Below are positions 19,011 through 24,107 of a stretch of DNA of 64,000 nucleotides, piece after piece. Below the pieces are notes generated by a model. That model saw only the letters and a program-made list of their open reading frames with translations. It was not told the DNA's origin and did not search any database. Positions within the stretch are counted from its first letter, which is position 1; every line of letters begins with the position of its first letter. Origin of the DNA: Escallonia rubra (Eukaryota > Streptophyta > Magnoliopsida > Escalloniales > Escalloniaceae); the NCBI GenBank assembly GCA_033065855.1, contig JAVXUO010001343.1, positions 1 to 64,000 on the forward strand, written 5' to 3'. Position numbers and translations under genes: made by a program.

Positions 19011-19170
19011 GAGATTTTCAATGTTCTCGATTATCATCTAATTTCATATTACACGTGAGGTGGAGTCAGTGGCGGAACCAGGAATTTGCTCCAGGGGGTG
19101 CTACAAATAAAACACTGCAATAACTAAATTTTGAAGTTCAAACAATATGACTTTTTCGATTGCGCTTCAG

Positions 19171-19300
19171 TGCTGCTATGAACTCGGAAACACGTGGGGA
19201 AGTTGCCATCAAGAAGATTGGTAATGCTTTTGACAACATAATAGATGCCAAAAGGACATTACGTGAAATTAAGCTTCTTCGCCACATGGATCATGAAAAT
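19171..19300 (+). pseudogene. Captured MAP-kinase exon 2 (MPK fragment)
   Basis: Reading from 19172 gives [20 protein letters not shown], then [20 protein letters not shown], then HEN, open throughout. This is the N-lobe of a plant MAP kinase, including the ATP-binding lysine in VAIKK and the start of helix C. It is bounded by a good acceptor (TTCAG before 19171) and donor (GTAAG from 19301), giving 130 bp, the size I recall for exon 2 of plant MPK genes such as MPK4. No other MPK exon is nearby and the piece lies 104 bp inside the hAT left end, so it is a captured fragment and not a gene. The open frame suggests a young capture or low decay. Confidence 0.9.
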
Positions 19301-20372
19301 GTAAGTTCGTGACATTTTTACGTCTGTATAATACTTCTGCACAGGGAACCCCATTTTGTGAAGAGGCTGCTTCACATTTTTATCCTGTGACATCTAGGTT
19401 AGTGTGGAGCTACCTTAGACAATCTACATGGATTTTTTTTTTTGCTTCCTGTAACTAATTAGGGGTTCCATTCATCTCTAAAGCACTCAAGGCTGTTGGC
19501 GGTGAGAAATTAATTAAAAGCTACCAGGATAGTTATGCAGGAGGATTAATCACAAATTTTCTTCAGCATTTGAGTTTATTAAGTTTTCATTCCAGTTGCC
19601 CCAAAAATTTTGAACAATGAAAACATGCTGAGAAAACTTCTATGGGATGGCTCTGATACGCGAATACACTAACTCGTAGCATATGTATCATGTGTACGAA
19701 AAATTAACACCCTCTTTAATTAATATGCAAGCTCTTCAGACGGTTCCCTGTGCAGATGATCATCCCATCAAGTCTGAGGACCCCTTTTAAAGCATGATAT
19801 GCCCATTCTAAGTGTTAATCAAATTACTACCACACCATCACCATGGACATTATTGCGACAACAATTGGAATTTAGGAAAGCAACAAAGACTAATCAAAGA
19901 ATTGACGGAATCCCAATCAACAATCTGAAAAGTTCACACTACAAGAAAAACAACTTTTAGCGACGGATTGAAATCCGTCGCTAAAAGTCACTTTTACCGA
20001 CGGATTTCTCCGTAGGTAAAAGTCCGTCGGTAAAAGTCACTTTTAGCGACGGACTTTTACCTACGGGTTATTACCGACAGAACAATCCGTCGCTAAATAT
20101 ATTTTTTCGTATTTTCTCATTTTCTTTTGAATTTTATTTTAAAAATAATTTTTATATTTTACTATAAATGAAGCAAACCCTAATTTGCTCTCATTTCATT
20201 CCCCGCCGCTCTTCTCTCTCTTTCCTCCCGACCGTATGCCCCCTCAATCTCCCTCTCCCTCACTCACACAGCCGGTCCGCCACACCACCCGACCGTTGGC
20301 CGCCATCCGCTCCGCCACACCACCCACCGCCACTGGTACTCCTCCATCGTCCGGTCAGTGTCATCACACCCG

Positions 20373-20470
20373 TCGAAGATCCTCTACGCCTACCACCGCG
20401 CCGTCACAGGCTTCTCCGCCCGCCTGACCGCCGATCTCCGCCGCCTTTCCTATTCCCTGGCCGCCTCTCC
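20373..20470 (+). pseudogene. Captured subtilase propeptide fragment
   Basis: From 20373 the frame reads SKILYAYHRAVTGFSARLTA and then DLRRLSYSLAASPG. This matches the inhibitor I9 propeptide of plant subtilisin-like proteases, where the typical form is an ILY.Y..A..GFSARLT..EA.L...PGV pattern. Only this piece of the propeptide is present; there is no catalytic domain. It sits directly before the cyanase fragment and within the CACTA element, so it is a captured or chimeric exon. Confidence 0.7.
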
Positions 20471-20524
20471 TGGTACCCACCCCCGCTACTGCTGCCGCCT
20501 ATGTGATTTCGAAGAACGGTGAGT

Positions 20525-20760
20525 GCAATACAGGCAGTGAAGCGTAAGTCGGCCAAGACCTACGCCGAGCTTGCTCAAGAGACTGGCCTCCCAAACATGT
20601 ACGTGGCCCAAATCTTGAAATGCCAGGCCCTGCTCAGCCCTGAGGCCGCCTGTATGCTGCGAGCACTGCCCGGGTTGCCCGAGGACCTGGTCCTTGAGAT
20701 GATGGAGCCACCTAGGAGGTCGTATGACCCCCTTTTGATCCAAGATCCTGCCATTTACAG
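20525..20760 (+). pseudogene. Captured cyanate hydratase (cyanase) exon fragment
   Basis: The frame gives AVKRKSAKTYAELAQETGLP, NMYVAQILKCQALLSPEA and a final block with LPEDLVLEMMEPPRRSYDPL then IQDPAIYR. This is the N-terminal helix-turn-helix-like domain of plant cyanase followed by the conserved SYDP..IQDP.VYR segment. The similarity ends exactly at a splice donor (AG then GTAACC from 20761), where the plant cyanase exon also appears to end, so genomic DNA with its intron border was taken up. The catalytic C-terminal domain (Arg, Glu, Ser of cyanase) is absent. The stretch 20973-21051 after an acceptor-like GCAG may be further captured exon DNA that I could not place. Confidence 0.88.
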
Positions 20761-21689
20761 GTAACCCAATGAAATGGAATAAGAGTTGTACCCGTCTAGT
20801 TTGTACCCATCTAGTTTGTACCCTCATCAATCCCCATTATTTTTATCTTGCCATTTATCTTGCCCCGTAGTTCTTGTAAGTTCAATGGGATATTCCGTCT
20901 AGTTTGTACCCGTCTCATTCTTTTTTCTTCCCTGAGCGTTGCTGAGTAGTTTTTTTGTTCCTCTAATGCAGATGGCGCTCGACTACATTGGGTAACGTGG
21001 AGCTACTATTGGTGTCACTAAGGAGAAGAGGATCAAGTACGTGAAGCTATAAGAGTTGAGTGTATCTTGGGAGATTGATATCTATTTTTGGTTTTAATAA
21101 AATATGTAATTTTGTTTTGAAATTTGTATGATGTGATTTATTTTGTTCGGTGAATATTTAATTTTTGTAGTTGAGTATATATATTTTTTTGGTGCAACAA
21201 TTTGTTCGGAGAATATTTAATTTTTGTAGTTGAGTATTGGATATTAGATGTTGGTGTATAACTTAGATTTTGTTTGTATTGCTTGAAATTTAAAGAAGAG
21301 TGCTATATTGGTGATTAGGATTAATTGTCAATGAAAATAGGCTTGAATTTTAAAAACTAATAACAATTTAAAAAAATAGTTTTTTTATTGACATTTAGCG
21401 ATGGAATTTCGTCGCTAAAAGTCTGATTCAAGTGTAATTGGATGGACTTTAGCGACGGAAGTTGTGTCACTAAAAGACTTAGATTAACGACGGACTTTTG
21501 GCAACGGAATATCCGTCGCTAAAAGTATTTTAAAATTGTTCACAACCTATTCTGGACCGCACCCCGGGGCCCGCTAAGAGATCCTAATGGCGCGACATGT
21601 CACCCATTTGGCGGTCAACATCGCTCAACAAGATTGCTCGGTCAAAGTACTCCGCGCCACAAACCACCGGACGGCGATCGAAAGTGTGC

Positions 21690-21770
21690 TCCACCCCAAG
21701 AGGGTCGGCCACCCCAAGGGGGTCGGCCACCCAAGGGGGGCGGCCACCCCAAGGGGGTCGGCCTCCATTG
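21690..21770. repeat. 18-bp minisatellite (about four copies)
   Basis: Units of the form GGTCGGCCACCCCAAGGG are repeated head to tail with small changes, inside the solo LTR. Confidence 0.8.
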
Positions 21771-21867
21771 CCCTGCGAAGGGGGGAACTTACCGAGTGGC
21801 ACTGACTTCTCGCTCCAAACAACACTCACCCGCTATCTTCAGTAGCGCGACGCTCTGTCGCCGACTC

Positions 21868-22411
21868 AATCAAAGTGACGGGGCTCCGGCCCTCACGGCG
21901 GGACGGGCGCGCAACCCTAATGCCCTCGCCGGCTCAATCAAAGTGACGGGGCTCCGGCCCTCACGGCGGGACGGGCGCGCAACCCTAATGCCCTCGCCGG
22001 CTCAATCAAAGTGACAAGGCTCCGGCCCTCACGGCGGGACGGGCTCGCAACCATGAAGCCCTCTCCGGCTCAATCAAACTGGCAGGGCTCCGGCCCTCGC
22101 GGCGGGACGGGCTCGCAACCATGAAGCCCTCGCCGGCTCAATCAAACTGGCAGGGCTCCGGCCCTCGCGGCGGGACGGGCTCGCAACCATGAAGCCCTCG
22201 CCGGCTCAATCAAACTGGCAGGGCTCCGGCCCTCGCGGCGGGACGGGCTCGCAACCATGAAGCCCTCGACGACTCAATCAAACTGACAGGGCTCCGACCC
22301 TCGCGGCGGGACGGGCTCGCAACCATGAAGCCCTCGCCGGCTCAATCAAACCGACGGGCTCCGGCCCTCGCAGGCATATCATTCTGGGGCTCCGGTCCTC
22401 GCCAGCACAAT
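21868..22411. repeat. 68-bp tandem array, about eight units, inside the solo LTR
   Basis: The motif AATCAAA recurs at 21868, 21936, 22004, 22072, 22140, 22208, 22276 and 22344, exactly 68 bp apart, followed by a degenerate unit. Each unit carries GGGCTCCGGCCCTC, GGCGGGACGGGC, CGCAACC and GCCCTCGCCGGCTC. Two subtypes exist: the first three units read GCGCGCAACCCTAATG, the later ones CTCGCAACCATGAAG. Confidence 0.95.
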
Positions 22412-24107
22412 CACCCGACGGACTCACGAGGGGCTCCGCTCGTAGTGCTCCGGCACGAGGACCCCTCGCCACGGACTCTAAGCATTGGGCTGTGAGCATG
22501 GCCGCTTATGTTACCATTGATCATCGACACCGCCAGGGCAATGACCTCCGGGTCACTCCGGGACGGGAGCAGGTCCTCGGAGGGCATCGCGCCTAGTCCG
22601 CCTGGCAGTTGGCTGCAGGGGCAACCCTCACCGCTGCCAGGATCTCGGCACGTCTCATGACGCATCTCGTGGGATTCAGTAAGGGCTTGGACTGGAGGCT
22701 GGGGCAACGGGCTACTCTAACCATGCTACCGCGGTGTGGTCAGTCTCCTCAGACAGGCAGAGGGACGCTGCAAGGGCAGGACGACACGAACTCGGGGACC
22801 GACAATTCGACGGACAATCAATACTGCGGGACCCTCTACGGCGACGTGTCGCTCCCGGAGGACGACACGTGTCGGCTGATGACACGTGCGCATTTGTGCC
22901 TATATATAGTGGATTTTAAAGCTTATTCAAGGACTTCTCTCTCATTTTCAACATTTCACTCTCTCTCTCTAAAAGCTCATTCTCTCTGGATTTCTAATGA
23001 GAGAAACACATTTGGACTCCTGTCATCAGACCCCTTGACACTGCACCCTTGACACGGACTGTCAACCGCTGGCCCTGTTCGTCGTCACCCTGCCTGCGCG
23101 GTGCTGCCAGCCCTCGCGATATGTCTGGGGAGCCTTGCTCTCAGCCCTTACGCCATCCTTGCTGTCTCCCACTTTGCCTACTCAGAAGCCAACTCAGACT
23201 GCATCCTTTGTGGCACCTCACGTGGCACGCGAACCATCTTTCCTCGGCAACAAAAATTGAATTTCGAGAAAATAACGAAAAATAGGAAACTATGAAAATT
23301 ACTTTTAGCGACGGAATATTCCGTTGCTGAAATATTTAATCCGTCGCTAATTTGACAAAAAATAAATAAATTAAAATTCTAAAAATATAATTAATGAGGG
23401 AATATCCGTCGCTAATTAAAAATAAATCCGTCGGTAAAAATGACATATTTAGCGACGGATTTAAAAATTCCGTCGCTAAACTATTAGTGACGGGCTTTTA
23501 TACGAGGGATTTTTAGCGACGGTTAATCCGTCGCTAATTCTTTTAGCGACGGATTTTGGGCTTTTAGCGACGGATTTCCCCGTCGCTAAAAGCCTGTTTT
23601 CTTGTAGTGTCAATTAACGATTTGAAATGCTCAATCAACGATCTATATGCTCAATTAGCATCAATTAAGAATCTGAAAATGCGTACCTAAATCGCCGGTC
23701 GCCGGTCATTCGTTGTCGCCTGCAGTGGATTCTTTGCCGGTGGAGTCCTCACCTCACCATCGCCACTTGCCCGTCACTGATCCTTCCGAATCTGAACAGA
23801 AGATGAATTCCTCGCCCTCGCCGGTCCACCTGTTTTCCCTTTCGAAGGCTCCACTTCGACCACTCGTTCCAGATCTGAACTCCTCAACAGAGGGAGTCGA
23901 CTGAAGGAGGTGGTGTCTGCCGTCGGGGGTGGTGTCTGTCGTCGGCCGTCTGCGGTTTGGGAGTGGGTGAGAGAATATGAGGGACAAGTTGCAGAGAGAG
24001 CAAGAGTCGCAGAACCAGATCTGGATGAAATGCAAAAAAAAATTCCAGAAATTGAGGGGGTACATTAGCCCCCCTCGTACGAGCGTAGCTCCGCCACTAG
24101 GTGGAGT

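Follow-up and report, generated by a model that had tools for sequence, protein, structure and literature searches.

How do pieces of unrelated host genes come to lie side by side, all in one orientation, inside a single DNA transposon? The question is raised by the window, a stretch of 64,000 nucleotides of Escallonia rubra contig JAVXUO010001343.1, in which an initial annotation made from the sequence alone had read a subtilase fragment and a cyanase exon within a non-autonomous CACTA element. We consider it very probable that the element is a Pack-CACTA that acquired host-gene fragments on separate occasions and was afterwards multiplied.

The CACTA element and its ends

Positions 19937–23609 of the window are a non-autonomous CACTA (En/Spm) DNA transposon of the Pack-CACTA type. 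Apart from the captured pieces, its features are the following.

19937–23609, no strand: the Pack-CACTA element from TIR to TIR, with CACTACAAGAAAA at 19937, TTTTCTTGTAGTG at 23609 and the TSD TCA/TCA
19953–20066, no strand: left subterminal repeats of the TTTTAGCGACGGA type, from repeat matches inside the element
20166–20316, plus strand: family-wide leader with an ATG at 20236, from the alignment of sister copies
21096–21101, plus strand: AATAAA, a putative poly(A) signal 3′ of the RPB2 exon, as read from the sequence
21537–23252, no strand: nested TG...CA insertion, probably a solo LTR, outside the capture, between AAAAT duplications at 21532–21536 and 23253–23257
23258–23609, no strand: right subterminal repeats and TIR, from repeat and TIR matches

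The TIRs, the TSD and the subterminal repeats bear out the placing of the host pieces inside a non-autonomous CACTA; AGCGACGGA motifs are repeated close to both element ends, as is characteristic of CACTA elements. Across the 566-Mb genome, the TIR plus subterminal-repeat pattern has 133 + 169 exact matches and its reversed control has 0 + 0. Matching 3-bp TSDs were found within a single locus at 13 of the 19 loci examined (the window locus counted in), and in a further locus, which is divided between L022 and L023, TTC is one of the TSD candidates at each end. Two findings mark the element as a Pack-CACTA: it is non-autonomous and carries host coding DNA whose likely donors were found in the same genome (subtilase, cyanase and RPB2), and it multiplied by transposition after capture, with 20 filled copies among 40 scored loci and various TSDs where these were read.

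The leader has no clear donor (query L025:4330–4535; 40 scored of 92 candidate loci), and in the window copy a private 17-bp duplication near 20277 shifts its frame. The 1.7-kb nested insertion is absent from all 15 other loci with matches reaching both sides of its site, and contains, at 21858–22371, 7.6 tandem copies of a 68-bp unit. Elsewhere in the genome, another CACTA is nested in the RPB2-bearing relative L045 (C287:160400–163600). Its 3′ end, the part of the interrupting element covered here, is 96.2% identical to that of L019 and is preceded by the end of a DUF4216 protein (E 1.3e-10), DUF4216 being a domain that occurs in CACTA transposon genes; this element is a possible candidate for the autonomous partner.

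Just outside the window copy, at 19170–19305, there is a piece of a MAP-kinase exon (best structures: mitogen-activated protein kinase 4, E 3.6e-18, and kinase 6, E 7e-17). The stretch 19100–19320 occurs in 11 places at 93–100% (the window counted in) and in four more at 75–87%, and its presence in so many places is suggestive of a further mobile element that took up a MAPK exon.

Host-gene pieces and their donors

The captured pieces of the window copy and the sequences joining them are as follows.

20317–20435, plus strand: captured subtilase I9-propeptide piece, 97.5% identical over 120 bp to its donor from C1178:37529 onward
20436–20445, plus strand: CTCCGCCGCC, 9/10 identical to the donor's CTCCGTCGCC in the alignment, marking homeology at the subtilase insert's 3′ junction
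20512–20760, plus strand: captured cyanase exon 1 minus its first few codons, 88% identical to C1358
20761–20772, plus strand: the 12 bp that open cyanase intron 1, GT donor included, from sequence comparison with C1358 and sister copies
20773–20912, plus strand: short stretch that replaces most of the long intron, from the block map; L020 and L025 have about 1.5 kb more
20913–21042, plus strand: captured RPB2 piece, with intron end, AG acceptor at 20970–20971 and exon ALDYIG-stop-RGATIGVTKEKRIKYV; donor gene on C3174 (L044)

Searches of the same genome, which the initial annotation had proposed, located likely donors for both of the genes it named as well as multiple sister copies of the element, with and without the pieces. 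The reading of a subtilase I9-propeptide fragment was confirmed by the close match to C1178 and by Pfam Inhibitor_I9, which scores above its cut-off in the window copy (E 3.7e-4), in the C1178 protein and in the 93-aa ORF of a sister copy; with the subtilase piece alone as query, no solved structure was matched. The C1178 donor is an open 787-aa frame that reads as a plant subtilase, and the piece falls inside that frame. Outside the 20 filled copies and C1178, the sole other match to the piece is at C2288:232604 (81%). The window copy is without 12 bp of the piece, which begins at 20317 and not at 20373 as first placed, and the gap between subtilase and cyanase measures about 76 bp instead of the 55 bp given earlier.

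The cyanase N-terminal identity likewise stands, since the piece (20512–20772) matches the cyanase gene on C1358 over 264 columns and matches cyanate hydratase structures at E 8e-5. The gene on C1358 is the single cyanase gene found in the genome (PF02560 led to two exons on one contig). Pfam CYNS_N falls below its cut-off for the piece (17.2 vs 27.1 bits), as it does for the parent exon, and a CYNS_N profile search of the genome gave 0 matches, a result made uninformative by the 0 matches in the control genomes. Neither the subtilase nor the cyanase match is due to chance. In the window copy the cyanase frame is open, with 0 internal stops, and has no in-frame ATG ahead of the piece; it is stop-free in 13 of the 16 readable copies, the window among them, with stops in L015, L027 and L030. 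Between the donor and the element majority there are 14 synonymous and nine non-synonymous single-change codons and one multi-change codon, a 3-bp gap leaving two codons uncounted.

The cyanase similarity had been said to end exactly at the GT donor (20761), but it continues into intron 1 for 12 bp here and for 371 bp in five sister copies (L020, L025, L026, L028 and L030). As intron DNA came along with the exon, the earlier view that genomic DNA was captured holds. A 15-bp tandem repeat lies within the 20773–20912 stretch of the window type.

The donors are indeed unrelated genes, as had been proposed, but their number was put at two, and the window copy holds three, RPB2 having been missed. 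The peptide encoded at about 20913–21042 matches structures of the RNA polymerase II subunit RPB2 (E 2.2e-5), and the open frames of the C3174 locus read as successive RPB2 exons, making it the likely donor. In L020, L025 and L028 the capture takes in part of one exon, the intron after it and the following exon; the exon of the window copy has an in-frame stop at 20993–20995. The 3′ part of the RPB2 piece also occurs in 14 more distant places (79–85%); in one of these, L046 (C2584), different sequence lies ahead of the RPB2 part.

A fourth piece, 1.1 kb long, is found in the sister copies L019, L021 and L024, and is 98% identical to a single place on C1314. It has the appearance of two exons with an intron, is taken here to be from a gene, and matched no Pfam family. 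All four pieces are in sense with the leader.

Order and manner of capture

The sister copies form a series. L049 combines the left end and leader with part of the family's right side and lacks all four pieces (2.2 kb compared, plus strand). L050 shows the leader together with RPB2 but none of the other pieces (2.5 kb compared, plus strand). L046 has RPB2 and no other piece, in 2.2 kb (plus strand) that stops short of the leader. In L048 the left end and leader are followed by 320 bp of other sequence and then by the segment found in L028 after the cyanase intron, with neither cyanase nor RPB2 in the 2.2 kb compared (plus strand). RPB2 and cyanase (exon 1 and 371 bp of intron) are present without subtilase in L025, L028 and L030; L020 has RPB2, cyanase and subtilase and retains the long intron; the window type combines subtilase with a short intron; and L019, L021 and L024 have subtilase and the fourth piece. 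Of the cyanase-bearing copies placed in the tree, L047 is the most distant; it carries 76 bp from the start of cyanase and is without subtilase.

Divergence between donor and element drops in step with this series, from about 0.12–0.15 to 0.04 and 0.01. The mean JC distances, taken from copies with >90% of the block, are 0.130 for RPB2 (n = 4), 0.149 for the cyanase intron (n = 5), 0.123 for the cyanase exon (n = 13), 0.041 for subtilase (n = 10; 3–7 differences in 120–141 bp) and 0.012 for the fourth piece (n = 3), and as donor genes are constrained these distances serve as ranks, not dates. Mean distances between elements are 0.015–0.046. Of 92 candidate loci, 40 were scored at the subtilase site, half of them filled (20) and half empty (20), and the empty loci include all 13 of the scored relatives at 77–84% identity, so that empty is likelier to be the older state. 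The tree suggests the same order, albeit weakly: the filled copies are grouped with a support of 48, the nodes below have 32–52, and the outgroup L047 is empty. Given this weak support, the polarity is drawn from the distant empty relatives and the divergence. The nesting of cyanase, then subtilase, then the fourth piece is thus shown. That RPB2 preceded cyanase is less firmly shown, with one full comparison (L050), overlapping RPB2 and cyanase divergences, and an L048 without RPB2 in its 2.2 kb. The copy in the window is damaged and belongs to the late members of this Pack-CACTA lineage.

The junctions bear on how the pieces came in. The subtilase step was a clean insertion: the empty-site sequence persists on both sides of the insert, with a net gain of 138 bp. 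At its 3′ junction, the 9/10 agreement between donor and element was reached by 40 of 200,000 random junction pairs, and at its 5′ junction the alignment revealed no evident homology between the two. The fourth piece stands in place of 24 bp of cyanase sequence and has 1 bp in common with the element at each junction. The cyanase capture is flanked on both sides by the 11-bp word TGATTTCGAAG, which is exact in L025, L028 and L030 and has one mismatch on one side in L020; L048 holds one copy. An 11-bp match arose in 9 of 1500 random placements, among which the real pair itself may be counted. Marks of this sort are expected where breaks are repaired with template switching. Capture would have taken place during the repair of a break or gap within the element, when the polymerase would switch briefly to an unlinked gene and then return, homology playing little or no part.

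For Pack-CACTA the proposed model, which has been applied to other Pack-TYPE elements as well, is tandem insertion, in which host DNA is trapped between adjacent insertions and the two neighbouring elements are mobilised with the intervening DNA as a unit, so that host DNA becomes internal (as outlined in PMC8903248 and PMC13317346). It is a published route and not a defining property of the type, and it could still account for RPB2 and cyanase, the oldest captures, for which the empty sites are defined only roughly. The subtilase and fourth-piece steps, however, are both internal insertions: the subtilase site is intact in 20 other loci, no element ends adjoin the inserted piece, and the donors are on other contigs, with no TIR-like sequence in the four donor stretches compared (3.5–9.5 kb), where one subterminal-repeat match was found, in the cyanase stretch. 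We therefore regard tandem insertion as an improbable explanation of the record, and template-switch repair would fit the subtilase and fourth-piece steps better. The series might also be read in reverse, the copies without subtilase having lost it through deletion between flanking CTCCGCC repeats. CTCCGCC does stand on both sides in the filled copies, where such a deletion would recreate the empty sequence, and the tree gives the capture order weak support; yet the 13 distant relatives are all empty, and a piece as old as the split from L047 (branch 0.099) should have diverged from its donor by more than the 0.04 seen, which leaves reversal with hardly any probability. For the manner of capture, then, we incline to the view that a single genome preserves a near-complete record from RPB2 through cyanase and subtilase to the fourth piece, together with empty-site relatives and a likely donor for each of the four, in which a Pack-CACTA gains genes by template-switch gap repair from unlinked loci and not by tandem insertion alone, building sense units with a hybrid intron (cyanase donor, RPB2 acceptor).

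Transcript potential and relation to known elements

The pieces would make up one sense transcription unit, with an intron that has the cyanase donor site and the RPB2 acceptor site, and chimeric RNA may come from this unit. The GT of the cyanase donor site is kept in 16 of 16 readable copies (of 19 rows; L023, L029 and L047 have no readable site), and the AG on the RPB2 side in 14 of 14. The potential chimeric transcript put forward in the initial annotation is thus compatible with the layout, its pieces being in sense and its splice sites kept, but a subtilase–cyanase fusion protein is not. The window copy has its ATG at 20236, its subtilase piece and its cyanase piece in three different frames, and the ORF from the ATG is 63 aa long; this copy most likely makes no useful protein. 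In 11 of the 13 subtilase-bearing copies read, the ORF from the leader ATG continues across the subtilase piece, in the frame of its donor, and is 89–95 aa long, the exceptions being the frameshifted window copy and L017, which has a stop (L026, without subtilase, is outside this count). In sister copies this ORF stops at a TGA at the cyanase or fourth-piece junction, and therefore no subtilase–cyanase fusion is encoded.

Would the plant use the leader–subtilase ORF of 93 aa, or a spliced cyanase–RPB2 RNA, as a functional chimeric gene? The intact ORF of those 11 copies, the entry of the subtilase piece in its donor's frame and the kept splice sites would agree with such a role, although in copies this young open frames and kept splice sites are expected anyway. 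The 5′ ORF has no significant constraint, with 35 non-synonymous or stop changes vs 38.3 expected (P 0.21), in a substitution test that left out L047 and has little power in young copies; the shifted-frame controls gave 43 vs 38.8 and 39 vs 40.1 expected. With the window copy frameshifted and L017 carrying a stop as well, a functional chimeric gene seems very unlikely. The related proposal, that a mobile copy could yield small RNA interfering with cyanase, was weakened by the comparison of 21-mers. With up to two mismatches allowed, 175 of the 241 21-mers of the window's cyanase piece match the parent region, and this would be the basis for any trans-acting regulation of the parent gene; none of the 241 is shared exactly, however, and the cyanase capture is old, and we would give such regulation very little credence. 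Exact 21-mers common to window piece and parent number 0 for RPB2 and 55 of 100 for subtilase, which makes any small-RNA effect likelier on the subtilase gene.

Pack-CACTA elements are already known as a kind, and what is valuable here is the preserved series with its intermediates and junctions. Pack-CACTA and other Pack-TYPE elements are described as non-autonomous carriers of coding DNA, often from more than one source locus, as in maize Pack-CACTA (PMC8903248), and the present element resembles them in being non-autonomous with coding DNA of several loci. It differs from the model of tandem insertion and re-mobilisation outlined there in that at least the subtilase and fourth-piece steps resemble internal template-switch insertions. 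The soybean CACTA Tgm-Express1 contains five fragments of host genes (Zabala and Vodkin 2007, PMC1947982). Like it, the Escallonia element is a CACTA with several unrelated host pieces comprising exons and introns, for which chimeric spliced transcripts are possible; unlike Tgm-Express1, presented in that account as one insertion in one gene with transcripts shown, it is a multi-copy series with intermediates and donors, read here at the DNA level. Capture by gap filling, or FoSTeST, is described for animal Pack-TIRs, in an account that calls its applicability to plant Pack-MULEs worth exploring (PMC8277862). The features in common with those cases are filler DNA in a TIR transposon, microhomology at breakpoints and multiplication by transposition afterwards, whereas the present element is from a plant. 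In the open-access literature searched, mostly at title level, no earlier report of serial CACTA capture with intermediates was found.

Gene capture by transposons is usually inferred from end products. Where copies from before and after several captures are preserved alongside the donors, the junctions, order and relative age of the captures can be read directly, and the choice between tandem insertion and gap repair becomes testable for plant CACTA elements. The Escallonia lineage also provides an example of unrelated exons strung into a single splice-ready unit.
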